This document shows, one piece after another, positions 1-15,451 of a stretch of 16,010 nt of DNA (position 1 is the stretch's first letter; each line of letters starts with the position of its first letter). The stretch comes from Mesotoga sp. (GTDB taxonomy: Bacteria; Thermotogota; Thermotogae; Petrotogales; Kosmotogaceae): positions 1 through 16,010 of the forward strand of contig WOZY01000088.1 in the NCBI GenBank assembly GCA_011620045.1, read 5' to 3'. The position numbers and the translations under genes are program-made. Under the pieces are notes generated by a model, which was not told the origin of the DNA, did no database searches, and worked only from the letters and a program-made list of their open reading frames with translations.

Positions 1-574
1 GCCTATCGTAGACCTCCAGCTTTCCCCGTGTGACCACGCTTGTGGCCATATCGAGAATGAAATCTCTCTTCTCTCCCGGGATAGCTATCGAGAATGGATT
101 AGTGCCAAGGACCGCCTCTTTGCCGAAGGTCGGAACGACAAGCGGATAGCTGTTTGTCATGGCAATTCCTATCATTCCCTCTGTAAGTGCCCTCTCCGAG
201 TAAAAGGCGGAGATCCCGTAATGGTTCGAATTCCTTACCGAAACGAGCCCGATCATGGACCGCTGTGCCTTCTGTATTGAAAGATCCATTGCATACTTGG
301 AAACACATTGTCCAGGACCGCCCCTGCCGTCGACTAATGCTGATACGGGTGTGTTATGGATTATTTCCGGTTCGGAATCTATGCGGATATTTCCGCGTTC
401 TCTCTCTTTTATATAGCGGCCCAGCCTGGCCACTCCGTGAGAGGGAATATCTCGGAGGTCGGCCTCCAGCAGAACCTCGACGATGTCTGAGGCCGTTCCA
501 TCGGGAAAGCCTTCGGCTCGGAGGATCTCTTCACACAAAGTTTTGAGGTCTTTATATGTCACATTCAGTCCCAT
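1..574 (-). CDS. Ldh2-family malate/lactate/sulfolactate-type dehydrogenase (partial, C-terminus off window)
   Basis: I translated this frame from the ATG at 572-574. It stays open for 191 codons to the window edge, so the C-terminal part is missing (full-length members have about 330-360 residues). It matches the Ldh2/YlbC/ComC family of NAD(P)-dependent 2-hydroxyacid dehydrogenases, which are unrelated to classical LDH/MDH Rossmann enzymes. Landmarks are DIPSHGVARLGRY (residues 42-54), the RNSNHYG block with candidate catalytic His118, and AMTNSYPLVVPTFG followed by LGTNPFSIAIPG (138-167), then FILDMATS. The likely reaction is 2-oxoacid to 2-hydroxyacid interconversion in the cytoplasm; substrates in the family include malate, lactate, sulfolactate and ureidoglycolate. 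The start shares one base with the TAA stop of the upstream M20 gene (TAATG), and AAAGGA lies about 10 nt upstream. It is the last operon gene visible. Family certain, substrate unknown. Confidence 0.88.
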   Translation of the reverse strand, partial: MGLNVTYKDLKTLCEEILRAEGFPDGTASDIVEVLLEADLRDIPSHGVARLGRYIKERERGNIRIDSEPEIIHNTPVSALVDGRGGPGQCVSKYAMDLSIQKAQRSMIGLVSVRNSNHYGISAFYSERALTEGMIGIAMTNSYPLVVPTFGKEAVLGTNPFSIAIPGEKRDFILDMATSVVTRGKLEVYDR

Positions 575-1680
575 TACGATTCCGTCCTTTCAAAGAATTG
601 TTTTGCAATCTCCAAGTACAGTGTTCTAGCAGTTCGAACTTCTTCCAGATCGACGTACTCATTCGATTTGTGAGCCATGGAGGCGGCGCCCGGTCCCAGT
701 ATTACAGTCTCAATACCGTTAGCTGCGGTGAAGGCACCGTCTGTGAAATATGTCATTGTGAGGTCGTCGGAGCTTAAGGACCGCTTCTTCAGAACATCCT
801 TCACGGTCAGGGCTAGCGGTCCGGACGAACTGAATGATTCTCTGCTAAGAAGAGTTGCCCATTCGGAGTCCTCGTATTTACAGATAACGTCGTCTACAAG
901 TTTTTCCAGAGCGGAGGAACCGGTATTCTCGGCAAATCGGATATCTATAATACACTCGGCTTCATCCGGTACTGTATTCTCTTTCGATCCACCACGAACA
1001 ATATTGAGACTTTGGGTAAGTCCTTCTATTCTGCCAAGAGCGTCGGAGAGTTCACTGTATGCGTTGAACAGTTTCAGAATGGCGTTGACGCCATTTTGCG
1101 GCTGCGAGCCGTGAGCGGATTTGCCCCTGAATTTCAGTCTAAGCCAGAGTGCGCCCTTCTCTCCGGTGGCAAGTCCTAAAGAAGTCGGCTCACCAATCAC
1201 TACAGCCGAGATGTCGAATGGTTTGTGTTCAAGAAAGTACTGTATTCCCGAGCAACCTACTTCTTCATCGCACGTGGCGAGAAGAGCCACGTTTCCGCAG
1301 AACTCCCTGTCTTCCGAAAGATCGACAAATGCCGCAATTAAAGCCGAAAGACCGCCCTTCATATCTGCGGAACCTCTGGCATAGAGCTTCCCGCCTATCT
1401 GTTCAGGTTTGAAAGGGTCGGTATTCCAGTTTGAACCGGCGGGTACCACGTCCATGTGACCGGAGAAGACTAAATACGGCATTCCAGGATCGCGTTCGAT
1501 CCTTGCAAGGAGATTTGAACGGTTGTCGGCGACTCGCTGAATTTCTACGCTAATTTCTTTCAGAGCGAGAGTTCTCTCGATAACCGATACGGCGAGATCT
1601 TCATTGCCCGGAGGATTCGTTGTGTTGGCAGAACACAACTCAAAGAGAAGACTTTCGAGTTGGGAATCGGTGTAACTCAT
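574..1680 (-). CDS. M20 family metallohydrolase (ArgE/DapE-type deacylase)
   Basis: A 368-residue protein of normal length for the ArgE/DapE/CPG2 group of di-zinc amidohydrolases, which remove acyl groups from N-acyl amino acids or related amides. The metal-binding scaffold is complete: SGHMDVVP (His75, Asp77), ARGSADMKGG (Asp106), TCDEEVG (Glu139 as general base, Glu140), GEPTS (Glu164) and MAHKSNE (His337). His190 in KSAHGSQP marks the dimerisation/substrate domain. There is no signal peptide, so it acts in the cytoplasm. The ATG overlaps the TGA of the preceding uxaA-like gene (ATGA), and a GGGG Shine-Dalgarno-like run lies 8 nt upstream. There is no arginine or lysine biosynthesis gene nearby, so a role in hydrolysing the imported substrate is more likely than ArgE or DapE proper. 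Substrate unknown. Confidence 0.9.
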   Translation of the reverse strand: MSYTDSQLESLLFELCSANTTNPPGNEDLAVSVIERTLALKEISVEIQRVADNRSNLLARIERDPGMPYLVFSGHMDVVPAGSNWNTDPFKPEQIGGKLYARGSADMKGGLSALIAAFVDLSEDREFCGNVALLATCDEEVGCSGIQYFLEHKPFDISAVVIGEPTSLGLATGEKGALWLRLKFRGKSAHGSQPQNGVNAILKLFNAYSELSDALGRIEGLTQSLNIVRGGSKENTVPDEAECIIDIRFAENTGSSALEKLVDDVICKYEDSEWATLLSRESFSSSGPLALTVKDVLKKRSLSSDDLTMTYFTDGAFTAANGIETVILGPGAASMAHKSNEYVDLEEVRTARTLYLEIAKQFFERTES

Positions 1681-2852
1681 AGTTTTATCCCCACATTCCA
1701 GATTGAGAAGTCGTCCTGTCCCAGAAACTCCGATTTCGTCTGCTCCCCTTCGGCAACCCTTAGAACAAGATCGAAAAGCCTTCTTCCGCTTTCCTCAAGT
1801 GTTTCCTCACCTGATATCACCGAGCTGCAATCGAAGTCGATATTCTCGCGCATTTTCCTGGCAGTTTCATGGTTCCCGGTTATCTTAATGACCGGGGCTA
1901 TAGCATTTCCCGTAGGTGTTCCCTGACCTGTCGTGAAGAGCACAACGGTCGCACCGCCGGCCACCATGCCGGTAACCGATTCAACATCATATCCAGGCGT
2001 ATCCATGAGGTAGAGGCCGGGGCGGGAAGCTATCGCTTCACCGTACTCGTTCACGCCCACAACGGGGACCTTTCCGCCTTTGATCATAGCTCCAAGGGAT
2101 TTCTCTTCAAGCGTAGTCAACCCCCCTCTGACATTTCCAGGGGAGATGTTGTTTGGGACGCTTTCCTTGTCCACCACGTCTCGACTATTCTTCATACTTT
2201 CATTTATCATTCTCTCGAGCATCCTGGCGAATCGCCGCTTCATCTCTTCGTCCTTCATTCTCTCAAAGAGGAGGTGTTCTGCACCGACCAGTTCAGTAGT
2301 CTCGGAGAGTATCACACGACCTTCTTCCTTCCATAGAATGTCGGCAGCCTGGCCGACTACCGGATTTGCCGACAGACCCGAAGAGAAGTCGGAACCACCG
2401 CATTCCATGCCCAGGACCAGTCTCGAAAGCGGAACTTCCTCTCTTTCAATCTTCGAGGCTTCCTCCACCATTTTCCTGACTATTGAGGTTCCCCTTTCAA
2501 CAGCCTCTACGGTTCCGTAGTCTTGAACCATTATCAGTTCGGCAGGCTTTCCGCTGTCTAGAATCACGTCCCTGAGTTCATGTGGGGAAACTCTTTCACA
2601 ACCGAGCCCAACAACAAGAACGGCTGCCACATTAGGGTTTAGCGCAGTATTTATCAGCGTTCTTCTAGTCTGCCGAAAATCATCCCCCAGTTGAGCGCAG
2701 CCTTGATTGTGGCTGGCCACTACTGATCCGGGAACAGCGGCCGAAATCTTTCTGGCAACATTCGAAGAGCAAAGAACACTGGGGAGAACGAGGACGTGAT
2801 TTCTCACTCCAACACTTCCGTCGCTTCTTAAATAACCCATCATGGTCTTCAT
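1677..2852 (-). CDS. UxaA/SuyB-type lyase, large subunit (C-terminal UxaA family domain)
   Basis: Large catalytic part of the altronate dehydratase / galactarate dehydratase / (R)-sulfolactate sulfo-lyase family, which eliminates water or sulfite from a hydroxyacid. From the chosen ATG it has 391 residues. Family blocks are GYLRSDGSVGVRN (6-18), SHNQGCAQLGDD with His48 and Cys52, VVGLGCE with Cys85, and GMECGGSDFSSGLSANPVVG with Cys151 (149-168). UxaA proper is one chain of about 495 residues carrying the SAF domain at its N-terminus; here that domain is a separate gene upstream, as in SuyA/SuyB. I chose the ATG at 2850-2852, with AGG nine bases upstream and a 10-nt gap after the previous stop. 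A GTG at 2874-2876 extends the frame by eight residues, but it sits directly against the GGAGG and would leave no spacing. Substrate cannot be assigned. Confidence 0.9.
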   Translation of the reverse strand: MKTMMGYLRSDGSVGVRNHVLVLPSVLCSSNVARKISAAVPGSVVASHNQGCAQLGDDFRQTRRTLINTALNPNVAAVLVVGLGCERVSPHELRDVILDSGKPAELIMVQDYGTVEAVERGTSIVRKMVEEASKIEREEVPLSRLVLGMECGGSDFSSGLSANPVVGQAADILWKEEGRVILSETTELVGAEHLLFERMKDEEMKRRFARMLERMINESMKNSRDVVDKESVPNNISPGNVRGGLTTLEEKSLGAMIKGGKVPVVGVNEYGEAIASRPGLYLMDTPGYDVESVTGMVAGGATVVLFTTGQGTPTGNAIAPVIKITGNHETARKMRENIDFDCSSVISGEETLEESGRRLFDLVLRVAEGEQTKSEFLGQDDFSIWNVGIKL

Positions 2853-2862
2853 AATATCTGGC

Positions 2863-3162
2863 CTAAGCCCTGACACCTCCCTCTTTGATCTCCGTTCGTT
2901 CGCTTACAACATTTTGGACGTGAACATGCTGGCCTGTCGAGATGTCCGAAGTTGCAATCCCTATCTTGTTATTGTATTTGATTATTCTTTCGTTTCTTTT
3001 GATGTTCTTCACGGCAACTTTGTGACCGAAAGGTATTTCTTCCTTCGCAACTAGCATCTGCAATCCGGAAACACCCTTCACCTCTATCACTTCGCCGATA
3101 TCCACTTTCTCAAGCACCGTTGCGACATTGTCGTTCAAAGACAGCAGAATAGCATGCTTCAT
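2863..3162 (-). CDS. SAF-domain small subunit of UxaA/SuyA-type lyase
   Basis: A 99-residue protein consisting essentially of one SAF domain, equivalent to the N-terminus of UxaA or to free-standing SuyA. Diagnostic blocks are IPFGHKVAV with His47 (43-51), KYNNKIGIAT (62-71) and GQHVHVQNV (77-85). In this family the small domain completes the active site of the large lyase subunit, which is encoded immediately downstream. I chose the ATG at 3160-3162 because GGAGG sits seven bases upstream. The frame is open further upstream to 3234, but that stretch lies inside the gntR gene and lacks an SD. The gene starts two bases after the gntR stop, so its SD lies inside the end of gntR, which implies translational coupling. 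Confidence 0.87.
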   Translation of the reverse strand: MKHAILLSLNDNVATVLEKVDIGEVIEVKGVSGLQMLVAKEEIPFGHKVAVKNIKRNERIIKYNNKIGIATSDISTGQHVHVQNVVSERTEIKEGGVRA

Positions 3163-3164
3163 TT

Positions 3165-3890
3165 CTAATCCTCCAATCGGGCAAAGTTTCCTTTGGCAGC
3201 ATAATCGATATGGTTGGAGCTGAGTATAGAACATATCATATTCATTGAGTGCTTTAGATGATCTTCCAGGGCACTAGAAGCCTTCTCCAGGTCTCCTTCT
3301 AGGATGCCCTGCGCGATTTTGAAATGTTCCTCCATCTCGTTAATTATCCAGTCTTTTTGCTGTTCAAGAAGATAGTATTTGATCACGTTCCGCATTCTCG
3401 TAAGCAGTATCGAGATCTTCGACATCATTTCGATTAGATATTCATTATTGCAGTTATTGAGTATCTCCCTGTGCAGCCTGTAGTCAATATCGTAAGGAAC
3501 TTTATTCTTTGTCACCTCCGGTTCCGAGAGGTGTCTTCTCATCCGCACGATCAGATTCGATATGATCTCTCTATCGATCCGATTAATTGATTCGCTCAAT
3601 GCAAGTTTCTCCAGCACCAGTCTTATCGGGAAGAGCTTCCTGACGTCATTTTCGAGAATCTCCTTTACGTAAAAACTCTTGGCGGCTCCCGGTGCGACAA
3701 GACCATCTTCCTTCAGCTTGTGGAGAGCCCCCCTTACCGGAGTAGAAGAAACTCCGTAGATTCTCTTCAGCTTCTCGATCGTCAATCTCGCTCCGGGAGG
3801 GATTTCCAGTTCTACGATGCTATCCCTTATTGATCTGTAGAGCTGCTGCTGGATTCCTTGAAACTGATTCGCGTCTGCCGATGTGTTCAA
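3165..3890 (-). CDS. GntR family transcriptional regulator, FadR/FCD subfamily
   Basis: A 241-residue DNA-binding regulator. The N-terminal winged helix-turn-helix spans about residues 12-75, with LTIEKLKRIYGVSSTPVRGALHKL as the recognition region. The C-terminal all-helical FCD ligand domain carries the usual metal-binding set: Asp136 and His140 in DYRLH, His189 in EEHFKI and His211 in EDHLKH. FCD regulators typically sense organic acids and often repress the operon that encodes them. The start is TTG at 3888-3890, overlapping the TGA of the upstream gene and preceded by a G-rich stretch. No better in-frame ATG exists before the wing helix. Its position inside the operon argues that it controls this operon; the palindrome on the livK promoter is the obvious candidate site (inference). 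Confidence 0.92.
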   Translation of the reverse strand: MNTSADANQFQGIQQQLYRSIRDSIVELEIPPGARLTIEKLKRIYGVSSTPVRGALHKLKEDGLVAPGAAKSFYVKEILENDVRKLFPIRLVLEKLALSESINRIDREIISNLIVRMRRHLSEPEVTKNKVPYDIDYRLHREILNNCNNEYLIEMMSKISILLTRMRNVIKYYLLEQQKDWIINEMEEHFKIAQGILEGDLEKASSALEDHLKHSMNMICSILSSNHIDYAAKGNFARLED

Positions 3891-4717
3891 AGTGATCCCC
3901 CCAGGATGTGAGGAAAAGCTTTCAAAAATGAAGCAGTTTCCCTTAGAGTTTCTATCTGATCTTCATCGCAGAAAACCTCGACACTGTATTCACCGGCATA
4001 ACCGGCTTTGCTCAGCATATCCAAAAAGCTCTGAAAATCAATCGCGCCCCGTCCCAGAGGTTTGTGATTCGTATCTGCAAGATGAACGTGTTTTATCAGC
4101 TCGATGTTCGAACTTACAAAAGAGCGATCCTTTTTCTCGTTGAAATGGTCAGAGTCAAGGAGAATTCCGAAACTCTTCAGTTCTCTCTCCGAAAAAAACG
4201 AGGCGGCTTCGGCGCAGCTATTAAGAATAGGGCAGACCACCTTTCTCAATGGTTCTATCAGAACGGACAACCCCTCGAGTTCACTTCTCACATACGAATC
4301 GATTCTTTCCAGCGATTCGCCAAGTCTCTCGAGTGACCTCTGGAGGCCGTCGGACCATATTACTCCCCTGAGCCTGCCGATGTTTAGATTAACTCCCAGA
4401 TCGTGAGCCTTTCTAGCTGCCAGCAAGAAGGAATTCAGCGCTCTTTTTCTTTCGTTTACGTCTATGTGGTTCAGGTAAAGGCCGGCAGTTCCAGCCATCT
4501 CGCCGGTGCAGAGAAATACGCACTTCAAAGAGAACTGTCTCTCAAGGCGTTTAACCTTTGCAACATCCACCTTTTTCGGATCTGCAATCATAAGCTCAAA
4601 GGAATTGAAACCCGCGCCTGCTACCGCGGAGAGCGTTTCTTCCAACCTGCCGGTGAGCCCAGTGACCTTTGCACCGGCCGGAATATCTTCGTTGGCCACC
4701 ATAAAACTTACTGCCAT
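3887..4717 (-). CDS. Sugar phosphate isomerase/epimerase-like TIM barrel protein
   Basis: A 276-residue protein of the xylose-isomerase-like / AP-endonuclease family 2 TIM barrel superfamily. Acidic and histidine residues fall at the expected strand ends: Glu155 in LIEPL, Asp188 and Asp190-His191 in LLDSDHF, His212 in HVHLADTNHKPLGRGAIDF, and Glu247 in YSVEVFCDE. This pattern matches the divalent metal site of D-tagatose 3-epimerase or hydroxypyruvate isomerase type enzymes, so an isomerase, epimerase or dehydratase acting on a hydroxy- or ketoacid is plausible. I chose the ATG at 4715-4717, with GAGGTG six bases upstream; an upstream in-frame codon at 4741 would overlap ptb. The SD overlaps the ptb stop (TGAGGTG). 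Specific reaction not identifiable. Confidence 0.78.
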   Translation of the reverse strand: MAVSFMVANEDIPAGAKVTGLTGRLEETLSAVAGAGFNSFELMIADPKKVDVAKVKRLERQFSLKCVFLCTGEMAGTAGLYLNHIDVNERKRALNSFLLAARKAHDLGVNLNIGRLRGVIWSDGLQRSLERLGESLERIDSYVRSELEGLSVLIEPLRKVVCPILNSCAEAASFFSERELKSFGILLDSDHFNEKKDRSFVSSNIELIKHVHLADTNHKPLGRGAIDFQSFLDMLSKAGYAGEYSVEVFCDEDQIETLRETASFLKAFPHILGGSL

Positions 4718-4727
4718 CTCTTTCACC

Positions 4728-5630
4728 TCAGCCCGCCGCACTCACTAATGCCATTGAGAGCGACACCTCTTTTGCGAATTCATTGTCGCTCCTCGATGTG
4801 AGAACAACGGGGAATCCTGCTCCCAAAAGAAGCCCGGCCGTCTTGGCTTTGCCTAGATGTACGAGGCCTTTTATGAGGTTGGCCGCAGATTCAAGATTGG
4901 AACAGACTAGTATGTCGGCCTCGCCTCCAACCTTTGACGTAATTCCCTTCTTCAGGGCCGCGTCCTTTTTCAGGGCAGTATCTATGGGCATTGGCCCGTC
5001 TACGAGACACACTCCGAATTGCCCTCTTTCTGCCATTTTTGATAACACCGCTCCTTCAACGAGGTCGCGATTTGTTACCGATACTCGCTCGTTTATACCG
5101 ATTACCGCCACCTTTGGTTCACTGATCCCGATCGATCTTGCAAACTCTACGGCATTCTTGAGTATCTCCGCCTTTTCCTTCAAATCCGGTGAGATGTTGA
5201 CCGTCCCATCCGTTATGAAAAGTAGTCTTGGATACTCCGGGATCTCCATACAGGAAATGTGACTTATAAGCCTTCCGCTAGCCTTTACCCTGCCGCTCTT
5301 GAAGAGCGCTCTTAGAAACACGGTGGTATTGATGTCGCCTTTCATTAGAACGGCGGGAATATCTCCCTCCAAAGCAGAGACTGCATTTGAAGCATTTTCC
5401 TCTTCAGATTCCCCTTCGACAACATGCGTCATCTTCAGAAACCCTTCAGATGCTGCCTCATTCATCTCTTCTAATCTTCCGAAAAGAGTGAATTCAAAAT
5501 TCCCGTTAGAGGAGGCAACTGACTCTATGGCCTCCATCGTCTTACGGTCATGCGGCTGCACGCAATTTACTCTCACGCGCTTCTCTAACTTGCTTGCTTC
5601 AAGAATGAACTCAGAAAGGGAATTAACCAT
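4728..5630 (-). CDS. ptb: Phosphate butyryltransferase (phosphate acetyl/butyryl transferase family)
   Basis: A 300-residue protein, the standard Ptb length and shorter than most Pta enzymes. It should exchange CoA for phosphate on butyryl-CoA or another short or branched acyl-CoA in the cytoplasm. Family features are the C-terminal GADILVCSNLESAANLIKG-type block and GLLLGAGFPVVLTSRSD near the end (about residues 265-285), with DGPMPIDTAL in the middle. The adjacent butyrate kinase gene supports Ptb over Pta, since the two act in sequence to turn acyl-CoA into carboxylate plus ATP. The start is ATG with GAGGTG eight bases upstream, and this SD overlaps the buk stop. There is an 11-nt gap to buk. 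Acyl specificity cannot be read; isobutyryl, isovaleryl or propionyl chains are possible. Confidence 0.87.
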   Translation of the reverse strand: MVNSLSEFILEASKLEKRVRVNCVQPHDRKTMEAIESVASSNGNFEFTLFGRLEEMNEAASEGFLKMTHVVEGESEEENASNAVSALEGDIPAVLMKGDINTTVFLRALFKSGRVKASGRLISHISCMEIPEYPRLLFITDGTVNISPDLKEKAEILKNAVEFARSIGISEPKVAVIGINERVSVTNRDLVEGAVLSKMAERGQFGVCLVDGPMPIDTALKKDAALKKGITSKVGGEADILVCSNLESAANLIKGLVHLGKAKTAGLLLGAGFPVVLTSRSDNEFAKEVSLSMALVSAAG

Positions 5631-5641
5631 CGATTATCACC

Positions 5642-6682
5642 TCAGTATTCCAGGGCCTCTTCGATCCCCCGTATTACTCTGTGCACTCCGTCTGCAAGGC
5701 TTTCCATCTCGAACTCTCCCGGGAAAAGGAGAACCCTGATACCCTTCAGTTTCTCAAGAAGTCTTTCTCTGACGTAGTCACACTTCACTACGCCGCCCGT
5801 AATGGCAAGGGCGTCGGGAAATCCGTCAAATACGGCCAGCAGACTGTATGAGTATTTTGCAATGTTGTAAATGTACGCTTCAAGCGGTGTAGAATCGATT
5901 TCTCCATTCTTGACGCCTTCGGCGATCCGTTCAACGTCACGCATTCCGAAGTGGGAAAACAGGCCGCCCCTGTGAGTCAGGTATTCGAGATAATCGTCTC
6001 TTGAGCGAGCGAATTCCGCCAATTCGTGAGTAGGGAGGGCGCCCGCTCTTTCCACAGAAAAGGGGCCCTCCTTGTCACTGTTGTATAAATCGACCATCTT
6101 TCCGTTTAGATGGGCGCTTACAGACGAGCCGCCTCCGAGATGGGCCACTATGAGCTTCGCTTCTTCGTAGCTCTTTCCCAGTTCGGTTGCAGCTTTCTTC
6201 GCGACTGCCTTCATGTTCAACGCGTGGGACAGTGAATTTCTTCTGATCTCCTCTATTCCCGTTATTCTAGCCCACTCGGCCAGTTCGTCCACACTGATCG
6301 GGTCGACTGTAAAAGCCTGCATTCCGAATTCCTGAGCCAGTTCAAAAGCTATCACGACCGCCGTATTTGCGGCGTGAATACCCTGAAGGCCCTTTCTGGC
6401 GTCATCGACCATCTCTCTGTTAATGCGGTAAACTCCGGAATTCAAAGGTTTCAACCTTCCTCCTCTGGCCGCCACGGCAGTCAGTTGGGATGGCCTTATC
6501 TCGTTTCTGTCCAGTTCTTTGAGGATCTGATCCTTCCTTATTGTGTACTGATCGGGAAAAAGGGGAAGGTCGAGCATATCATCGTCAAGGGGAAGCGTCT
6601 TCTTGAACACTTCTTTCCCATCTCCGAAGACGGCTACCTTGGTTGATGTCGAACCGGGATTTATGACGAGAATCAGACTCAT
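5642..6682 (-). CDS. buk: Butyrate kinase
   Basis: A 346-residue ASKHA-fold carboxylate kinase, close to the usual 350-360 for Buk and shorter than acetate kinase (about 400). It makes ATP from butyryl phosphate or a related acyl phosphate. Motifs include the N-terminal phosphate loop VINPGSTSTKVAVF (6-19), AARGGRLKPL (71-80), TVDPISVDELAEWARITG (125-142), SLSHALNMKA, the second phosphate motif IVAHLGGGSSVSAH (178-191), GPFSVERAGALP and the adenosine-site ITGGV near the C-terminus. These blocks are those of Buk rather than AckA. Its ATG overlaps the TGA of the upstream DRE-TIM gene (ATGA), and ptb follows 11 nt downstream. The buk-then-ptb order is the reverse of the clostridial ptb-buk operon. 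Confidence 0.92.
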   Translation of the reverse strand: MSLILVINPGSTSTKVAVFGDGKEVFKKTLPLDDDMLDLPLFPDQYTIRKDQILKELDRNEIRPSQLTAVAARGGRLKPLNSGVYRINREMVDDARKGLQGIHAANTAVVIAFELAQEFGMQAFTVDPISVDELAEWARITGIEEIRRNSLSHALNMKAVAKKAATELGKSYEEAKLIVAHLGGGSSVSAHLNGKMVDLYNSDKEGPFSVERAGALPTHELAEFARSRDDYLEYLTHRGGLFSHFGMRDVERIAEGVKNGEIDSTPLEAYIYNIAKYSYSLLAVFDGFPDALAITGGVVKCDYVRERLLEKLKGIRVLLFPGEFEMESLADGVHRVIRGIEEALEY

Positions 6683-7932
6683 TTCATGTAATCTCCGACT
6701 ATCCTCTTGAATTCGTCAAGTTCGAGGACCGCGTTTCTTATTCGTCCTTCCTTTCGCACGATTTCCGTCAGTTCTTCAAGCTGGTCTTCGCTCGCCTCTA
6801 TACCCAATCTCTTCAGCCAGTATTTTATGCTTGCCTGGCCGCTGAAGGCACCGAGCTTCACGTCTATCTCGCCCATTCCTACAAGCGAAGGAAGGTACGG
6901 GGTCATGGCGGCGTTAATCCCGGCCGCATTCAACTTGTCGATTGCGTCAACGACGATGCCCGATTCGACCCAGAAGAGGCGCTTCCCAACGACCGGCTTG
7001 TTGTTCGCCACCTGGATTTTCGAAATATCCTCGACCAGTCGCGAAGTGTATCCTATCTTCGTCAGATCGACTCCAGTATCTATCCCCATCAGGAGTTTCA
7101 GGCCGGCGGCAACCTCTTCAGTAGCTACGTTGCCCGTCCTTTCGCCAAGCCCGTTGATCGAGCTGTGAATGCCTGATACACCGGCTCTTACAGCGGCAAA
7201 AACCGATCCCATTGCCAGACCGAATTCATTGTGGGCGTGGAATTCGAGCGGGATGTCCGGGATGGCCTTTCTAAGCTCAGTGAAGATGAACTCGATTGCA
7301 AACGGAGAGGCGACTCCAAAACTGTCTACGAAGACAATACTCTCCGGTCTTGCTTGCTTTGCCACTTCTGTGAAGACTTTCAGGACATAATCAGGGGTCG
7401 ATCTTGTTGTGTCCCAGCCCATGAATGTCGGCTTCATGCCCTGTTCCTTCGCATAGAGAATTGCTGAAATTATTCTGTCAATGAGTTTTTCTGGAGACAC
7501 ACCGTAGACAAGCTCGTTATCGTATGGATTTACCGCGTGTTCAACCACTACTCGTGTGGCGCCGCAATCGGCAGATTCATCTATATCCTTCTTCAAAGAC
7601 CTTGCGAACGGAACGATTTCAGAATCGAGGTTCATGTCAACGAGTCTACGTATCGCCCTCTTGTTCTCGTCGGAGACTACCGGCATTCCGACCTCAATGG
7701 ATTTCACACCCAAATCATTCAACGCAACTCCGATTCTCACCCTTTGATCCTCGCTCCAGGTAAGACCACAAGTCTGTTCTCCATCTCTCAGCGTAACGTC
7801 GTGTATGTAGATACTGTCTCTTGCGTTTTCTCCCCGGATTTCTCTCTCATAGTTGAGAGGACTTACCCAGCGTGATTCATCGAAGTATGGTGTTCCATTT
7901 AACTTCATGTAGTCAAGATCTTTCGGTTTCAT
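6679..7932 (-). CDS. DRE-TIM metallolyase of the LeuA/homocitrate/citramalate synthase family
   Basis: A 417-residue member of the HMGL-like TIM barrel family, which forms or breaks a carbon-carbon bond between an acyl-CoA and a 2-oxoacid using a divalent metal. The signature DVTLRDGEQ (45-53) has metal ligand Asp50, EFHAHNEFGLA (230-240) gives His232 and His234, and SINGLGERTGN (258-268) is the conserved glycine-rich loop. About 40 residues precede the barrel, including WVSPLNYE. The C-terminal part after the barrel (roughly from 300) is about 115 residues and does not leave room for the complete LeuA regulatory domain of about 500-residue 2-isopropylmalate synthases. No leuBCD or lysine genes are nearby, so leucine biosynthesis is unlikely. 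SD AAGGAGG lies seven bases before the ATG, which overlaps the larA TGA. Substrate and direction unknown; next to ptb-buk, a cleaving role is an inference. Confidence 0.87.
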   Translation of the reverse strand: MKPKDLDYMKLNGTPYFDESRWVSPLNYEREIRGENARDSIYIHDVTLRDGEQTCGLTWSEDQRVRIGVALNDLGVKSIEVGMPVVSDENKRAIRRLVDMNLDSEIVPFARSLKKDIDESADCGATRVVVEHAVNPYDNELVYGVSPEKLIDRIISAILYAKEQGMKPTFMGWDTTRSTPDYVLKVFTEVAKQARPESIVFVDSFGVASPFAIEFIFTELRKAIPDIPLEFHAHNEFGLAMGSVFAAVRAGVSGIHSSINGLGERTGNVATEEVAAGLKLLMGIDTGVDLTKIGYTSRLVEDISKIQVANNKPVVGKRLFWVESGIVVDAIDKLNAAGINAAMTPYLPSLVGMGEIDVKLGAFSGQASIKYWLKRLGIEASEDQLEELTEIVRKEGRIRNAVLELDEFKRIVGDYMK

Positions 7933-9179
7933 AATTGTGCCTCCTTATTCGATATTTCCGGCAAGACAAGTGAGTTCTGAAGAACCGCAATGCTTTTGCC
8001 GGCCGTGGCCACCCGGTCAACAACCGATTGAATATCTGGATGGACCTTTAAACCAAGTTCATTGAACTGATCTGCGAATTTAGTGTTGCTCACGATGTGA
8101 ATCCTTTTCTTCTCGATCACTTTCCTTACGGCATAGGCCGCCACATATGCAAGCGGGTCTTCGGTAGTGATCACGTCAAGTCTTTCTAAGATCTTTTCAG
8201 CCTCCATCTTGAGTAATGAGGCAAATAGAGGATGATCGCCAAAGCCTTCATCGAGTGAAGAGACCATCACGATATCTCCTCCATTTCTGGTAACCAGATC
8301 GGAAGTGTACAGCGCTTTGCCGCACTGCCAGAAATCGGTCACAGAGGGGAATGAAGATATCACGGTGACATCTGCTTTTTCCGAGTACTCTCGAAGCAGC
8401 TCTTCTCTCGCCACTTTGACGCCTTCCCTGTGTGCCGTCACGTGATTGCCCGATACACATCCGGCGATTCTTCCCTCGATATCGTAGTAGAAATTAATTA
8501 TGAAATCAAGTCCCACTCGTCTTCCGGTTTCATCTATAAGTTCTCTAAACTCATTGTCAAGAACTCCGACGTCGGCTCTGCTCTTCAGTATAGCCATTCT
8601 GTGTGACTTAAAGACAGTTTCATATGCAGAGACGCCCGGAATCACAATTTTCGCTCCGCCCGACCATCCGGAGAACCTGTGAGGAACGATCGAGCCAACT
8701 CCAACTGTGAGGTCAGCTCCAACCGCTTCGTTTATCTTAATCGGTACTCCAAGGAATTCTCCATAGTCTTTCATCCTGCTGGTTGCTTCTGCATCGTGCT
8801 GGATGATTTTAGTATCCCGAGAAAAACTTCCGAACTTCTCGCTTAGCTCTTCAGCCGTCATCTGTCTGTGAGTCCCAGTCGCGACAAGCAAGGAAACTTT
8901 GCTCCAGGGAATCTTATTTTCGGCGAAAAGCGATTTCAAGAAAGAGAGAGTCTCAAAAATGGGAGAGTGCCTTGTGTGATCCTCTACGATAAGGACTATC
9001 TCTTTCGCAGATTCCGCAAGCTCCAGGATCGGAGCAGCATCAAACGGCTTCAGTAGCGACTCTCGCAGTGAGCTGCCCTCTCCGCTTCTCTCAGCAGGTG
9101 AGGTCGGAAGAAGTACTCTTCCCGCCGGAACTTCCAGCTGAAGTTTCTCCTTCTCTCTATAGTCAAGCGAAAACTTCAT
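7929..9179 (-). CDS. larA: Nickel-dependent lactate racemase family protein (LarA)
   Basis: A 416-residue LarA-family racemase/epimerase of 2-hydroxyacids that uses the nickel-pincer nucleotide cofactor. The catalytic set known from Lactiplantibacillus LarA is present: DHTR with Asp67 and Arg70, ATGTHR with His104, the signature PHRFSGWSGGAK with His167 and the cofactor-linking Lys177, and ETVFKSHRM with His193. The enzyme should therefore be active if the cofactor is supplied; larB, larC and larE are not in this window. Characterised family members act on lactate, malate, 2-hydroxyglutarate, phenyllactate, gluconate or short aliphatic hydroxyacids, so 'lactate' is only a default. I chose the ATG at 9177-9179, one base after the livF stop with GGTGG upstream; a GTG at 9191 would overlap livF without an SD. 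The 3' end overlaps the DRE-TIM gene by four bases. Confidence 0.9.
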   Translation of the reverse strand: MKFSLDYREKEKLQLEVPAGRVLLPTSPAERSGEGSSLRESLLKPFDAAPILELAESAKEIVLIVEDHTRHSPIFETLSFLKSLFAENKIPWSKVSLLVATGTHRQMTAEELSEKFGSFSRDTKIIQHDAEATSRMKDYGEFLGVPIKINEAVGADLTVGVGSIVPHRFSGWSGGAKIVIPGVSAYETVFKSHRMAILKSRADVGVLDNEFRELIDETGRRVGLDFIINFYYDIEGRIAGCVSGNHVTAHREGVKVAREELLREYSEKADVTVISSFPSVTDFWQCGKALYTSDLVTRNGGDIVMVSSLDEGFGDHPLFASLLKMEAEKILERLDVITTEDPLAYVAAYAVRKVIEKKRIHIVSNTKFADQFNELGLKVHPDIQSVVDRVATAGKSIAVLQNSLVLPEISNKEAQL

Positions 9180-9180
9180 C

Positions 9181-9897
9181 TTACTTACCACCGAAGTACA
9201 TTTCTCGAATTCTCTCGTCGCTCTTCACTTCATCAACAGAGCCTTCAAGTTTTATTTGACCTTGTGACACGATGTAGACTCTGTCGCTCATCGGAAGCGA
9301 GAGCTTTGCGTTCTGTTCCACGATCAACATGGTCAGACCCGTATCCTTGACGTAATTCTCCAGAGTCTCGAATATTCTCTTCACAATAACAGGAGCCAAT
9401 CCCATGGAAGGTTCGTCTATCATCATAATCAGTGGGTCTGAAACGATGCCCCTTCCAATTGCAAGCATCTGTTGCTCTCCCCCGGAGAGCGTGCCGGCCA
9501 TCTGGTTTTTCCGAGACTTCAGTTCCGAGAAAAGCTCATAGACTTTCTCGATGTTTGGGCGAGCCTTTGCGAGTCCGATTCTCGTGGCAGCCACTTCAAG
9601 GTTTTCCTGAACGGAGAGTTCCGGGAAAACCTGTCTTCCTTCAGGAACGTGAATAACCCCGAGTCTTGTTATCTTGTGTGGGGGAAGATGCTGGATCTCT
9701 TCTCCGTTCAAAAGGACCTTGCTTCCGGGTTCAGAAGATACAAGTCCTGAGATGATCTTCAGAAGAGTCGTCTTTCCCGCTCCATTAGGACCGAGCACGG
9801 AGACGACTTCTCCTTTTGAGGCCTTTATTGATACTTTTCTGAGAGCGGGAACCTCGTTATATGAAACTGAGAGATCACGGGTTTCAAGCAAAAACAT
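9181..9897 (-). CDS. livF: Branched-chain amino acid-type ABC transporter ATP-binding protein LivF
   Basis: A 238-residue ATPase subunit of a HAAT-family importer. Walker A GPNGAGKT is at 36-43, the signature TLSGGEQQ at 136-143 and Walker B LIMMIDEP at 156-163, followed by the typical SMGLAP and IVEQNA (switch His replaced by Gln-Asn, as is usual for LivF). It pairs with LivG on the cytoplasmic side of LivH/LivM. I chose the ATG at 9895-9897, with GGGAGG seven bases upstream; an in-frame TTG two codons earlier sits too close to that SD. Two bases separate it from the livG stop, and larA begins one base after its own stop, joining transporter and catabolic genes into one unit. Confidence 0.95.
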   Translation of the reverse strand: MFLLETRDLSVSYNEVPALRKVSIKASKGEVVSVLGPNGAGKTTLLKIISGLVSSEPGSKVLLNGEEIQHLPPHKITRLGVIHVPEGRQVFPELSVQENLEVAATRIGLAKARPNIEKVYELFSELKSRKNQMAGTLSGGEQQMLAIGRGIVSDPLIMMIDEPSMGLAPVIVKRIFETLENYVKDTGLTMLIVEQNAKLSLPMSDRVYIVSQGQIKLEGSVDEVKSDERIREMYFGGK

Positions 9898-9899
9898 AA

Positions 9900-10658
9900 T
9901 CAATCCTCCCCCAGATAGGCTTTGAGAACTAGCGGGTCCTTTTCGATATCATCGAATTTTCCCTTGGCAATCACCTGACCAAAGTTAAGAACATAGACCC
10001 AGTCTGCAACGGCCTTGATAAAGTCCATAGTGTGTTCCACAAGAAGAATCGTAATTCCTCTTTCTTTGAGAATCATCATCAGGTCCATTATCACTTTGAA
10101 TTCGTCTCTGGTCATTCCGGCAGCAGGTTCGTCCAGGAACATCAGCTGAGGTTCGAGTGCAAGAGCTCTTGCGATTTCCAGACAACGCCGTAATCCATAT
10201 GCCATACCTGTCGGAGAGTCGTATGCCCTATCTTCAAGGCCCACGAGCTTCAGAAGTTCCATAGCCTTCTCTTTGTTTTCTTTTTCTTCTTTTCTGAATT
10301 TGGGAGTGCCGAGAACTACGCTCATAGGGCCGGACTTGTAAAAGGGTTTTCTGGCTACAAGAACGTTCTCAATCACTGAGAGATTCTCGAAAAGCCTTAT
10401 CTTCTGGAAGGTCCTCGCAATACCCAACCTGCTTATCTTGTTTATATCCATTCCCGATATGTCCTGATCCTTGAAGTAGACCTTTCCGCTGGTAATAGGG
10501 TGTACTCCCGTTGCAACATTTATGAATGTCGTTTTGCCCGATCCGTTGGGACCGATTAAGGCTGTGATCTGCCCTTTGGGAATTCCAATCGACAGATTAT
10601 CGTTTGCCACGACTCCACCGAATCTCTTGGTCATGTTTTCAGTTCTGAGTATGTCCAT
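9900..10658 (-). CDS. livG: Branched-chain amino acid-type ABC transporter ATP-binding protein LivG
   Basis: A 252-residue ATPase subunit. Walker A GPNGSGKT is at 36-43, the Q-loop Gln is in ARTFQKIRLFENL (Gln85), Walker B LMFLDEPAAGM gives Asp176-Glu177, and VEHTMDFI holds the switch His. The ABC signature is unusual: where the family has LSYGQQRRLEIARAL or a close variant, this protein reads MAYGLRRCLEIARAL (152-166), so the conserved Gln is Arg and the following Arg is Cys. The rest is intact, so I treat it as functional. The ATG at 10656-10658 has AGGTGG about seven bases upstream and follows the livM stop by 12 nt. Confidence 0.95.
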   Translation of the reverse strand: MDILRTENMTKRFGGVVANDNLSIGIPKGQITALIGPNGSGKTTFINVATGVHPITSGKVYFKDQDISGMDINKISRLGIARTFQKIRLFENLSVIENVLVARKPFYKSGPMSVVLGTPKFRKEEKENKEKAMELLKLVGLEDRAYDSPTGMAYGLRRCLEIARALALEPQLMFLDEPAAGMTRDEFKVIMDLMMILKERGITILLVEHTMDFIKAVADWVYVLNFGQVIAKGKFDDIEKDPLVLKAYLGED

Positions 10659-10670
10659 TTTCACCCCACC

Positions 10671-11633
10671 TTACAACGTCTTTGTGTTGCTTCTCTTCAA
10701 TCTGAATATCTTCCTGAAGAGGCTTTCGAGAATGGGCCCAAGTCCCATGGGCACGAATATGATAATCAAAATGACAATTATCGAAGTCACCATGAGATAG
10801 TAGTTTTCCCATCCGCCGAATCTTAGAAATTCTGGAAGAAGAGTAAGACCAATTCCGCCTACGACTCCGCCGCTCATGTGTCTTAAACCACCAACGACCG
10901 CCATTGCGACAAAATTCGATGATTCAAAGAATGTGAATGGTTCCGGTGAGAGAAAGCCTGCCAGATGAGCGTATAGTGCTCCTGCCAGTCCCGCTAGGCC
11001 TGCAGAAAAGCCAAAAGCCGCCATCTTGAGTCTCTTTGTAGAAATTCCACAGGTTTCCGTGGCAACATCATCGTCATTCATTGCAAGCATAGCTCGACCA
11101 AAGTGAGAATGTTTTATACGGTACATAATGAATACCGATACGAAGAGCAGCCCGCCAAAGAGCCAGAAGACCTGCCCGAAAGAAAGCATGTTGTTTCCCA
11201 CCGAGTAGAACGGTATGCCAAAAAAGCCGGACGGTCCGCCGGTTATCGGAGTGAGGTTTATCACAAGCATCCAGACTATCTGTCCGAAAGCGATTGTCAC
11301 AAGAGAAAGGAAGAAAGCCTTGAGCTTGAACGAGGGAATACTTAGAAGAAATCCGGCGACGACGCTGATGACAATTCCCGCAATTACTCCGACTGTGATT
11401 GGCATTCCTAGCTTCACAGTGAAGTAAGCGGAAGTGTAGGCCCCTATTGCGTAGAAACCAGCCTGTCCGAGCGATATCTGGCCGGCGAAACCAGTCAGAA
11501 AGACCAGTCCGGTAGCAAGAATCGCGTGAATAAGAGCTCTGTTCATCAGGTAGAGATGGTACGAATTATTAGTGAAAATGGGAAACAGTACTATGAGTAG
11601 AATTGCCCCGACAACGAATATCAACTTCTTCAT
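10671..11633 (-). CDS. livM: Branched-chain amino acid-type ABC transporter permease LivM
   Basis: A 320-residue inner-membrane permease with about eight to ten hydrophobic segments, starting with a membrane helix at residues 3-20. LivM-type blocks are GLVFLTGFAGQISLGQAGFYAIGAY (about 42-66), the cytoplasmic coupling loop GRAMLAMNDDDVATETCGIST (about 180-200) that contacts the ATPases, and GLAGLAGALYAHLAGFLSPEPF. It forms the translocation channel with LivH. The ATG has a G-rich SD (AGGGGGTG) four bases upstream and follows livH by 10 nt. The C-terminus ends in a basic tail (KIFRLKRSNTK). Confidence 0.93.
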   Translation of the reverse strand: MKKLIFVVGAILLIVLFPIFTNNSYHLYLMNRALIHAILATGLVFLTGFAGQISLGQAGFYAIGAYTSAYFTVKLGMPITVGVIAGIVISVVAGFLLSIPSFKLKAFFLSLVTIAFGQIVWMLVINLTPITGGPSGFFGIPFYSVGNNMLSFGQVFWLFGGLLFVSVFIMYRIKHSHFGRAMLAMNDDDVATETCGISTKRLKMAAFGFSAGLAGLAGALYAHLAGFLSPEPFTFFESSNFVAMAVVGGLRHMSGGVVGGIGLTLLPEFLRFGGWENYYLMVTSIIVILIIIFVPMGLGPILESLFRKIFRLKRSNTKTL

Positions 11634-11643
11634 CTTGCACCCC

Positions 11644-12534
11644 CTATATCTTCTTTCTCTTCCAGTTGAATATTCCGGAAGGTTTCAGTATCAGAACGGC
11701 TACAAGAACCGAGAAGGATATTATGTCTCTGTACGTAGAGGATATATAGAGGGTTGAAAAGTTCTCCAGGAGGCCAAGAGATATTCCTCCGAGTATCGTT
11801 CCGTAAGGATTGGTCAATCCTCCAAGTACGGCCGAAGCAAAGCCTTTAACCCCTATCGAGCCTCCTCCAAGTTCTAGAGACACGAAGTAGATGGGTGCAA
11901 GGAGTATTCCGGCGATTCCCACGACGACTGTCGCCATAATGAAGGATAGAGAGGTCGTTACCTTCACGTCAATTCCCATGAGAGCTGCCGCTTCCCTGTT
12001 CTGAGCAGCTGCACGGAATGATTTTCCAATAAGCGTTTTGTTCAGTATGAAATAGATGAAAACCATCAGTATTGCAATTACGAGATAGATGTTCAAGTAG
12101 AGAGAGGGAATTCTTATGCCTCCGAGTGAAATGAAGTCGTTGCTTCCCCCGAATACCGGCGGAAAGGGCTTTGGTAGAGCCCCGTAAACAACAATTATCA
12201 AGTTGAGCCAAAAGGTGCACAGCATAAGCGTGGCGACAACGAATTCGAGACGTCCACCTCCTCGCTTCCTTATGGGCTCATATATAAAGACTCTTAATCC
12301 CAACCCATAGAGTGCTATTACGCCTATAGACAAAACGAAAGAGATGAAAAAACCCAAGTTCAGCTGAGTGTAGAAACTGTAGAACAGATAGGCTCCCAGC
12401 ATCGCCGACGAGATGTTCGCAAAATTTATTCGGGAGATCGTCAGCCAGAGGAAAACTACGCCGAGTCCTACAAGTCCATATGTGGCACCGATTGAAGCCC
12501 CTGAAACTATGTTCTGGAGAATGTCTTGAAGCAT
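11644..12534 (-). CDS. livH: Branched-chain amino acid-type ABC transporter permease LivH
   Basis: A 296-residue inner-membrane permease of the LivH type with multiple hydrophobic segments. Typical features are the N-terminal GASIGATYGLVGLGVVFLWL helix, RINFANISSAMLGAY, the coupling loop GKSFRAAAQNREAAALMGID (about 168-187) and SAVLGGLTNPYGTILGG. The ATG at 12532-12534 has AAGGAG eight bases upstream. It is separated from livK by 65 nt containing a hairpin, which probably sets a lower expression level than livK. The C-terminus ends with a positive KRKK cluster. Confidence 0.93.
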   Translation of the reverse strand: MLQDILQNIVSGASIGATYGLVGLGVVFLWLTISRINFANISSAMLGAYLFYSFYTQLNLGFFISFVLSIGVIALYGLGLRVFIYEPIRKRGGGRLEFVVATLMLCTFWLNLIIVVYGALPKPFPPVFGGSNDFISLGGIRIPSLYLNIYLVIAILMVFIYFILNKTLIGKSFRAAAQNREAAALMGIDVKVTTSLSFIMATVVVGIAGILLAPIYFVSLELGGGSIGVKGFASAVLGGLTNPYGTILGGISLGLLENFSTLYISSTYRDIISFSVLVAVLILKPSGIFNWKRKKI

Positions 12535-12562
12535 TGTTCACACTCCTTGTAAGGAAAGTAAA

Positions 12563-12590
12563 CGGGAGGTAGGCAGAGCGCCCCCTCCCG
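12563..12590 (-). terminator. Intercistronic hairpin after livK (attenuator or mRNA-end stabiliser)
   Basis: Seven perfectly complementary bases, CGGGAGG at 12563-12569 and CCTCCCG at 12584-12590, enclose a 14-nt loop that can form an inner GGC/GCC pairing. On the minus strand the 3' arm is followed by TTTACTTTCC, a short and imperfect T-rich tract. It lies 10 nt past the livK stop. This is the usual place for partial termination or 3'-end protection that lets the binding protein be made in excess over the permeases. The tail is too weak for a strong terminator. Confidence 0.55.
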
Positions 12591-12599
12591 CAAAGAGGC

Positions 12600-13718
12600 T
12601 TAGTACAACTTAGTGATTATCTGCCAGTCTTTTCCGTCGAACTGGGAGATTAGACAGACATTTGTGAAATTATGGTGTTCGTCGCACTTCAGTTCGCCCT
12701 GCACACCAACGATTCTGGCTTCATTTGCAAGGTATTCCGCAAGCTTTGTTCCGTCAGTTCCTACATTTCTTAAAGCATCTGCGAGCAGGTACATTCCGTC
12801 ATAGTAAGCCTGTGCCGGGTCGCTGGGTTCTTTGCCGTCCCATCTGGCCTTGTAAGCTTCAACAAAAGCCTGAACCGCAGGATCGGGATCGACGGGGTTG
12901 AAACCCTGAACAGAATACACACCTACAGCCGCTTCAGGAGCGAGGTCTGTGAATGCGGGAACACCCCATGCAGAGAATCCGATAATGGGCACATCGATCT
13001 GTAACTGTCTAAGCTGGTTAACCGATACTGCTGCTTCAGATTCGTGAGTGAGTCCTATTAGTCCATCGAATCCAGCGTTCTTCAGCTTCAACAACTGCCC
13101 AGTTGCATCCTTGTCCCCTTCTTTGATCTGTTCCATTGCCACTATTTCGATTCCGTACTTCGGGAACTCCTCTTTGGCAACTTCAAGAGCAGCTATACAG
13201 TAGTCGGTTGAGCCGTAGATAATTCCAGGTTTCTCGATTCCAAGAACCTCAACTGCGTATTTTACCAGCTGAATAACCTTGACCTTGTCGTCGGCTCTGA
13301 GTCTGAAGAGGAAATCATTGGGAATAACCGAGTACCTGAATGAAGGAGAAGTCGCTCCGACCAGCATTGGAACCTTTGCCTGCTGTGCCAGTTGGTGAAC
13401 GCCAATGACTGAACTGCTCATGTTCGGTCCAAATACGGCCACAACGTTGTCCTGAAAGAGAGCTCTTCTTATGACATTTGCAGCCGTGCTTGGATTTGCT
13501 GCGTCGTCATACACGATCATTTCGAGCTTATCACCGTTGACTCCGCCTGCAGCGTTGATCTCTTCAAGCGCCAACTGTGCGCCCATCTTGATGTAGTCGC
13601 CAAGAATAGAACCCAGTCCTGTGAATGGTGCAACCAATGCTACCTTGATCGGTGCGCCAAGTGCAGCAACCCCAATTAGCATGACCATTGCGACTACGAG
13701 TACCTTGTTTAACTTCAT
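12600..13718 (-). CDS. livK: Branched-chain amino acid-type ABC transporter substrate-binding protein LivK
   Basis: A 372-residue periplasmic binding protein of the Leu/Ile/Val type (Peripla_BP_6), first gene of the operon. A signal peptide covers about residues 1-21 (Lys3-Lys5, hydrophobic VLVVAMVMLIGVAAL) with cleavage near ALG-AP. There is no lipobox Cys, so the mature protein is soluble in the periplasm/toga space rather than lipid-anchored. The mature start IKVALVAPFTG, the GPNMSSSVI segment (98-105) and GATSPS (121-126) are the family's ligand-contact regions near the hinge. Proteins of this family bind amino acids, amides, aromatic acids and other carboxylates, so the ligand may be the organic acid handled by the downstream enzymes. 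The ATG has GGAGG seven bases upstream. Confidence 0.94.
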   Translation of the reverse strand: MKLNKVLVVAMVMLIGVAALGAPIKVALVAPFTGLGSILGDYIKMGAQLALEEINAAGGVNGDKLEMIVYDDAANPSTAANVIRRALFQDNVVAVFGPNMSSSVIGVHQLAQQAKVPMLVGATSPSFRYSVIPNDFLFRLRADDKVKVIQLVKYAVEVLGIEKPGIIYGSTDYCIAALEVAKEEFPKYGIEIVAMEQIKEGDKDATGQLLKLKNAGFDGLIGLTHESEAAVSVNQLRQLQIDVPIIGFSAWGVPAFTDLAPEAAVGVYSVQGFNPVDPDPAVQAFVEAYKARWDGKEPSDPAQAYYDGMYLLADALRNVGTDGTKLAEYLANEARIVGVQGELKCDEHHNFTNVCLISQFDGKDWQIITKLY

Positions 13719-13790: not shown

Positions 13791-13811
13791 CACGATGCAT
13801 TATACATCATG
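13791..13811 (-). promoter_or_regulatory. 21-bp imperfect palindrome covering the liv -10 box (candidate operator)
   Basis: Read on the minus strand, the left arm CATGATGTAT and right arm ATGCATCGTG match in 8 of 10 pairs around a central A, and the TATAAT box sits inside. A regulator bound here would block RNA polymerase. The only regulator gene in the operon is the FadR-type GntR protein, a dimer that would need such a dyad. The link between the two is inference. Confidence 0.45.
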
Positions 13812-15372: not shown

Positions 15373-15451
15373 ATATAGATCGATTCTACATTGTTTCTCT
15401 TCACGAATGCGTTTTTGAAAGTGCATATGCGTCGCTGCATCTATTCTGTAA

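Follow-up and report, generated by a model that had tools for sequence, protein, structure and literature searches.

The window analysed here is the whole 16,010-base contig WOZY01000088.1 of a Mesotoga sp. draft genome (G000; assembly GCA_011620045.1, 1.75 Mb in 317 contigs, 79% complete). It carries fifteen minus-strand reading frames at 2–13718, running from a livK gene that starts at 13718 to an Ldh2 gene truncated at the contig end. We read these genes, with a probability of about 45%, as one regulated operon that serves the breakdown of a carboxylic acid of polyhydroxy (sugar) type, in which the carbon chain would be cleaved with the help of CoA and ATP would be gained from the resulting acyl-CoA. 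Splitting of a dioxo or hydroxy-oxo acid with CoA is the step that best joins the sugar-acid-type enzymes of the cassette (UxaA, a TIM-barrel epimerase, Ldh2, LarA and sometimes IlvD), its importers for polar acids and its end in acyl-CoA and ATP. The cassette looks like an undescribed pathway within the openly licensed literature searched, where we found no report combining three of the four terms LarA, UxaA, butyrate kinase and isopropylmalate synthase, none on Mesotoga with butyrate kinase, and no paper on a LeuA-like retro-Claisen enzyme.

Gene order, conservation and regulation of the cassette

Neighbouring genes in the operon are spaced by −14 to +11 bases, except for livK–livH (65 bases) and an apparent 70-base overlap between the GntR and SAF genes. 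This overlap is an artefact of choosing the longest reading frame, because the SAF ATG at 3162 is preceded by GGAGG and leaves a 2-base gap. The initial annotation, made from the sequence alone, had described a one-strand, near-continuously overlapping set of fifteen genes. That arrangement was borne out with two corrections, the SAF start at 3162 and the truncation of Ldh2, and all of the family names it had given were backed by Pfam or NCBIfam matches. Since the contig breaks off within Ldh2, the operon may continue further.

The gene for the DRE-TIM (LeuA-like) enzyme served as the anchor for the comparison of loci. We scanned 84,980 species genomes with two peptide patterns, took the best 80 loci and added loci from further relatives. 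Neighbours were counted in 92 loci, using probes from the window and from loci L036 and L076 and accepting only same-strand matches no more than 10 kb from the DRE-TIM gene; L032 was excluded as it lies on the same contig as L117. In the 20 loci with a DRE-TIM identity of at least 48.5%, which span Thermotogota, Spirochaetales, Cryosericum and Bacillota, we detected the UxaA large subunit in 19, the SAF subunit in 19, an acyl kinase in 18 and Ptb or PduL in 19, together with LarA in 15, the TIM barrel in 13 and LivK plus LivH in 11. The gaps in these core genes are contig ends, L043 stopping 12 bases past the DRE-TIM gene and L038 beginning 972 bases before it. Among the 72 loci below 48.5% identity, the corresponding numbers were 2 for UxaA, 2 for SAF, 1 for the kinase, 0 for Ptb or PduL and 2 for LarA, the two exceptions being L064 (with a CoA-transferase) and L076 (with an AckA-family kinase). 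The co-occurrence of larA, the DRE-TIM gene, buk–ptb and the UxaA pair to which the initial annotation had pointed was therefore recovered, with the core of DRE-TIM, UxaA pair, kinase and phosphotransacylase present in 18–19 of 20 clade loci versus 0–2 of 72 others. All 13 cassette DRE-TIM proteins in the tree, from which three rows had been removed beforehand, formed a single clade with a support of 0.999.

When 61 genomes were searched, a DRE-TIM gene of at least 78% identity was found in G000 and seven relatives, the nearest protein being 96% identical and labelled Mesotoga sp. The same gene order was present in the seven further Mesotoga-family loci (L112–L118), two of which are truncated where a contig or a stretch stops; L113 has no livK at its contig start, and the remainder of livK lies on a separate contig. 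With the block kept in 7/7 of these loci, the genes are not scattered among close relatives, as the proposal of a single unit demanded. Rearranged versions occur in the Spirochaetales, Cryosericum and Bacillota loci. The "exact set" of genes originally emphasised needs narrowing to the core, since the importer, regulator, kinase, phosphotransacylase, M20, Ldh2 and TIM-barrel genes differ between lineages. The cassette is rare, with DRE-TIM matches at E 1e-100 or better in 3/72, 1/296 and 2/391 genomes of three sampled groups; in one of the last two (G505), the 4.7-kb contig shows no cassette genes. This sporadic occurrence across distant lineages suggests horizontal transfer. A search of plasmids with the DRE-TIM protein gave 31 records, in each of which the best place was below 60% identity and, where annotated, mostly of nifV/leuA type, with no cassette among the matches listed.

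Alignment of the livK upstream regions from 7 loci revealed a common block around ATGATGTATAATGCATC. In the window, this block contains a 19-bp near-palindrome with one mismatch, ATGATGnATnATnCATCAT, at 13792–13810 (no strand assigned), which overlaps a TATAAT and is a candidate operator for the GntR/FCD regulator encoded at 3165–3890 (GntR and FCD domains). A palindrome search of the window allowing up to 3 mismatches gave 1 match against 0.10 expected, and 18 of 200 shuffled sequences also had one; a promoter scan listed no promoter at 13792–13810. With one mismatch allowed, 9 of 11 Mesotoga-family genomes each had exactly one match to the operator-like pattern, while the reversed control pattern gave 0. 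The pattern had been derived from seven of these nine loci, leaving G002 and G005 as the independent cases; G002 has the site, livK and livH before its contig ends within livM, and the cassette DRE-TIM gene was not found in it. All nine sites lie about 70–90 bases upstream of livK, and the two remaining genomes, G006 and G007, have neither the site nor the cassette DRE-TIM gene. The region upstream of livK in the Spirochaetales locus has a palindrome without mismatches, built on the same GATGCATC core. The near-palindrome may be bound by the GntR/FCD regulator, and the fifteen genes are predicted to be controlled as one unit from this single site. Together with the block kept in 7/7 loci, this upheld the earlier description of a single unit of catabolic type that is conserved and brings along an importer and a regulator.

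The DRE-TIM clade and its acyl-CoA partners

The DRE-TIM enzyme (LeuA-like, HMGL-like; 6679–7932, on the minus strand like all operon genes below) retains the metal and 2-oxoacid site of Claisen-type synthases at R49, D50, Q53, S204, H232 and H234, corresponding to the R, D and Q of LRDGEQ, the Thr/Ser and the HxH. The metal His was conserved in 90/90 rows of the DRE clade. According to the available text of PMC11532901, acetyl-CoA is activated in isopropylmalate-type synthases by a Glu, a His and a Tyr. In isopropylmalate, homocitrate and methylthioalkylmalate synthases these are Glu227, His388 and Tyr399 (BjMAMS numbering), whereas the corresponding positions of the cassette enzyme hold W173, V327 and M343 (N340 for the Tyr by pairwise alignment), and a Glu new to the clade, E131, is conserved. 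None of the three residues was kept in any of the 90 clade rows, one of which is gapped at two of the positions, versus all three in 18 of 18 canonical rows; the clade rows are the best 80 of the two-pattern scan plus relatives, not deduplicated, and the canonical rows were labelled by motif and length rather than by annotation. The cassette clade additionally shows a motif EHxxNPY, and Y346 is present in 13 of 14 of its rows.

With the Claisen triad lost, the initial assignment to a plain isopropylmalate-type acyl-CoA enzyme did not hold, and an ordinary LeuA or citramalate synthase was weakened as a candidate. In its fold and over most of its length the DRE-TIM enzyme resembles LeuA, as would be expected if a leucine- or citramalate-type biosynthetic synthase lay by chance in a mixed operon, but every NCBIfam LeuA, HCS and CimA model scored below its cut-off and the gene is conserved together with catabolic genes, so that we consider this explanation improbable. 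A reverse citramalate or isopropylmalate synthase with net ATP was also considered unlikely for thermodynamic reasons.

The DRE-TIM gene is followed by genes for a butyrate-kinase-family acyl kinase (Buk; 5642–6682), which passed the curated TIGR02707 cut-off (320.4 vs 289.1 bits), and for a Ptb-family phosphotransacylase (4728–5630; PTA_PTB, 8.1e-31), which fell short of that of TIGR02706 (235.4 vs 410.5 bits). The Ptb–Buk pair of butyrate formers belongs to the same families and is likewise encoded by adjacent genes, but the cassette has no butyrate-forming genes, its Ptb lies under the equivalog cut-off, and its relatives use replacements. PduL takes the place of Ptb at L036 and L155, and in the distant loci AckA replaces Buk (L076) or a succinyl-CoA:acetate CoA-transferase replaces both enzymes (L064). 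Such swaps for non-homologous or distant counterparts fit acyl-CoA turnover as the conserved step. AckA and PduL usually run towards ATP in this role, and Ptb–Buk would do so here.

The use of ATP would be reversed if DRE-TIM were a hydroxyacyl-CoA lyase like citramalyl-CoA lyase, with Buk and Ptb (in L064, the CoA-transferase) spending ATP to activate an acid of 3-hydroxy or malate type before it is split into acetyl-CoA and a 2-oxoacid. We judge this rather unlikely in view of the usual ATP-forming direction of AckA and PduL and the LeuA-type GLGERTGN loop that the enzyme retains; HMG-CoA lyase has a catalytic Cys. A class II pyruvate aldolase, cleaving 2-oxo-3-deoxy acids into pyruvate and an aldehyde while Ptb–Buk served acyl-CoA from 2-oxoacid:ferredoxin oxidoreductases encoded elsewhere, is unlikely: the kinase and phosphotransacylase that travel with the DRE-TIM gene across phyla would be left unexplained, and the RDGxH motif of such aldolases is RDGEQ in this enzyme. 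Buk and Ptb favour branched acyl groups, and L036 has a true IlvD by score next to LarA, of which L043 and L155 carry close copies of the IlvD. Both points favour a branched-acid pathway (pantoate- or dihydroxyisovalerate-like) in which M20 opens an amide, LarA and Ldh2 act on the 2-hydroxyacid, IlvD or UxaA dehydrates it and isobutyryl-CoA passes to Ptb–Buk. We give this pathway little credence, however, as no IlvD was present in the Thermotogota, Spirochaetales or Cryosericum loci and DRE-TIM would have no clear role.

Other branches of the DRE clade have different neighbours. A more distant, Alphaproteobacterial branch with Tyr173 has an intradiol dioxygenase in 14 of 27 loci (L081, L086, L089, L092, L093, L096, L097, L100, L101, L103, L105, L106, L107 and L109), often with nitroreductase and DctP-type genes, and malonyl-CoA decarboxylase in 5 of 27. 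From these neighbours the Tyr173 branch also looks catabolic, consistent with a cleavage enzyme, and it is probably an undescribed aromatic-acid route. A further Trp173 branch (L057, L061, L063, L012, L066, L069, L071 and L073) adjoins Pfam "Putative cyclase" genes, and Dehalococcoidia loci (L045, L046, L047, L048 and L050) carry a tandem pair of clade DRE-TIM genes, one with Gln at the position of Glu131.

The UxaA-type dehydratase, LarA and the remaining genes

The lyase of the cassette is made of a SAF-domain small subunit (2863–3162, start moved from 3234; SAF, 5.3e-6) and a UxaA/GarD-type large subunit (1677–2876; GD_AH_second and GD_AH_C, 1.2e-94) whose nearest solved relative is galactarate dehydratase 6u7l (8.9e-57). 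In the available sections of PMC6336799, four cysteines are described as conserved across the UxaA superfamily except in sulfolactate lyase. The pair shows the features of the UxaA/GarD family, a SAF and a large domain with the four iron-site cysteines (C36, C60, C93 and C159, equated with the published ones by spacing and one GarD row). These cysteines were present in 20/20 cassette large subunits and also in those of L064 and L076; of 7 rows from plasmid relatives, 5 had them, and both exceptions are haloarchaeal. Judged by its sequence, the enzyme is a sugar-acid-type dehydratase, because it keeps the cysteines reported absent from SuyAB.

SuyAB, the sulfolactate sulfo-lyase, also has two subunits (SAF and large), and L-sulfolactate dehydrogenase is the best NCBIfam match of Ldh2; both facts would suit an operon in which LarA racemises sulfolactate, SuyAB frees sulfite and Ldh2 is the sulfolactate dehydrogenase. 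The SuyAB identity offered for the split lyase in the initial annotation was nevertheless rejected on the cysteines and on the Ldh2 score (230.7 vs a cut-off of 500, for the 359-residue full-length protein of a relative, L112:1162–2241), and a sulfolactate operon, which would give DRE-TIM, Ptb and Buk no role, is highly improbable. Plasmid relatives of UxaA (about 48% identity) have genes of the FAH and DHDPS families and for ketoglutaric semialdehyde dehydrogenase around them, and one of these relatives also lies beside AllD. Across six plasmid neighbourhoods, the UxaA pair occurs with FAH- and DHDPS-family genes in 3 and with a 2-keto-3-deoxygluconate permease in 3.

The LarA-family 2-hydroxyacid racemase/epimerase (7929–9191; Lar_N, 7e-41) has the LarAH6 malate racemase model as its best NCBIfam match, at 230.6 bits against a cut-off of 500. 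Every position checked for the nickel-pincer nucleotide (NPN) cofactor and the substrate is kept, covering the catalytic His pair, the cofactor Lys, the Ni-ligand His and the Arg/Gln/Lys carboxylate site: D71, R74, H108, H171, K181, H197, Q289 and K292 were identical in 32/32 aligned rows, some of which are copies of one gene. The residue roles follow the accessible parts of PMC11851776 and PMC12611868. Cassette LarA thus shares these eight positions with lactate and malate racemases, from which it differs in scoring far under the cut-off of its best curated model and in a genome where LarB, LarC and LarE were not found. None of the three exceeded its cut-off in 13/13 tested DRE-clade genomes with the cassette and LarA (G000, G001, G003, G004, G005, G008, G009, G013, G061–G064 and G066), of which G000 is 79% and several others 98–100% complete. 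LarC was present in 3 of the 21 genomes searched for it, and matches above cut-off came from 3 of 18 for LarE and from 2 of 18 for LarB, the carriers being G065, G068 and G070, with LarB of G068 a near miss in pieces. A survey of LarA and LarC across the Thermotogota class found a LarA-type match in 53 of 103 genomes (51 over cut-off), LarC in 15 and both in 12, leaving 41 with LarA and no LarC. The available text of PMC11796402 reports larBCE without larA in about 15% of genomes; the converse was not found stated in the portions of the openly licensed literature searched. The assumption that LarA sets the stereochemistry is likely by family but clouded by maturation genes that were not found, and in such genomes LarA needs another source of its cofactor or another cofactor. 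In a further Mesotoga locus (L164, G007:C21), a different LarA lies, by eye, beside EtfAB-, GlcD-, AOR- and aldolase-like genes.

The importer is of the HAAT type, with a livK-type binding protein (12600–13718; Peripla_BP_6, 1.4e-56; best solved relative 4gnr, 6.1e-35), two BPD_transp_2 permeases (livH, 11644–12534; livM, 10671–11633) and two ABC_tran ATPases whose best NCBIfam matches, the LivG (9900–10664) and LivF (9181–9903) models, are below cut-off. The solved structures matched by LivK point to amino-acid binders and gave no ligand. The structural search leaves room for other families. Importers vary between loci among HAAT, DctP, RbsB and NMT1 types, and these swaps fit a polar organic acid as the substrate. 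The xylose-isomerase-like TIM barrel (3887–4741; AP_endonuc_2, 6.1e-28) is related to 5-keto-L-gluconate epimerase (IolO model, 112.9 bits, cut-off 300; best solved relative TM_0416, 2zvr, 5e-16). The M20 (ArgE/DapE-type) hydrolase (574–1680) passed TIGR01910 (224.9 bits, cut-off 217.6), and the cut Ldh2/MDG-type dehydrogenase occupies 2–574 (Ldh_2, 1.1e-69). Upstream of livK and set apart from the operon lie an unassigned reading frame and the genes for a radical SAM protein and RidA; the short radical SAM protein (14641–15426) is akin to the PA0069/Rv2578c families at scores far under cut-off, and its adjacency to RidA is kept in G002.

The proposed pathway

The sequence itself shows the gene content and its conservation, the operator-like site, the lost residues and the cysteines; from there we infer the substrate, the order of the steps, the direction of Ptb–Buk and the cleavage chemistry as follows. 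LivKHMGF would take up a polyhydroxy acid, and M20 would strip an acyl or amide group where one is present. LarA (at the C2 hydroxyl), the TIM-barrel epimerase and Ldh2 would tune configuration and oxidation level, after which the two-subunit iron enzyme of UxaA type would dehydrate the acid to a 2-oxo-3-deoxy acid. DRE-TIM, which retains the metal/2-oxoacid site and appears to have lost the machinery for an acetyl-CoA enolate, would use CoA to break a C–C bond, releasing a 2-oxoacid, for instance pyruvate, together with an acyl-CoA, from which Ptb and Buk would form the free acid and ATP. The likeliest cleavage would be thiolysis of a 2,4-dioxoacid, with CoA taking the part that water plays at the hydrolase step of the known Route III.

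The available sections of PMC6336799 describe Route III, whose 2,4-dioxoacid hydrolase belongs to the FAH family. This non-phosphorylative route of pentose and deoxyhexose metabolism (D- and L-2-keto-3-deoxypentonate, rhamnonate and fuconate) passes through 2,4-dioxoacids, which are hydrolysed to pyruvate and either glycolate or lactate. As read here, the cassette would share with it a UxaA/GarD-type dehydratase as a possible starting enzyme, a C–C cleavage to pyruvate and an acid, and an importer/regulator cluster. The route described there employs an SDR 4-dehydrogenase and the FAH-family hydrolase and gains no ATP at cleavage, whereas neither enzyme is among the fifteen cassette genes, which encode DRE-TIM, a kinase and a phosphotransacylase instead.

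Several points weigh against the proposed catabolic operon. The cassette has no obvious 4-dehydrogenase, so the source of the 2,4-dioxo group is its weakest link, and Ldh2 is missing from several loci. The failure to find LarB, LarC and LarE means that LarA may not act in the way supposed here. The role of the lost Glu could have passed to E131, and that of the lost Tyr to Y346 or another Tyr, allowing Claisen condensation after all; we found no member of the DRE clade with a tested function. The loci with PduL have a true IlvD by NCBIfam score, which could point instead to branched dihydroxy acids. Inspection by eye of the livK upstream regions of L035, L036 and L037 showed no operator-like palindrome; these loci have no GntR gene of the cassette type in the neighbour count.

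A bolder form of the proposed pathway is possible but doubtful. Here the DRE-TIM clade would be a new class of C–C-cleaving enzyme, a thiolase for 2,4-dioxoacids (acylpyruvates) in which the 2-oxoacid leaves as a metal-bound enolate and CoA receives the acyl group. The cassette would be an energy-conserving, anaerobic Route III spread between phyla, and the LarA cofactor would not come from LarB, LarE and LarC. If the proposed pathway is right, thiolysis would let an anaerobe keep the energy of the Route III cleavage as ATP, adding an anaerobic route for burning sugar acids. It would also give a function to widespread "LeuA family" and "homocitrate synthase" annotations, which are probably wrong, and the LarA findings raise the question by what means many LarA-bearing anaerobes obtain or replace the nickel-pincer cofactor.

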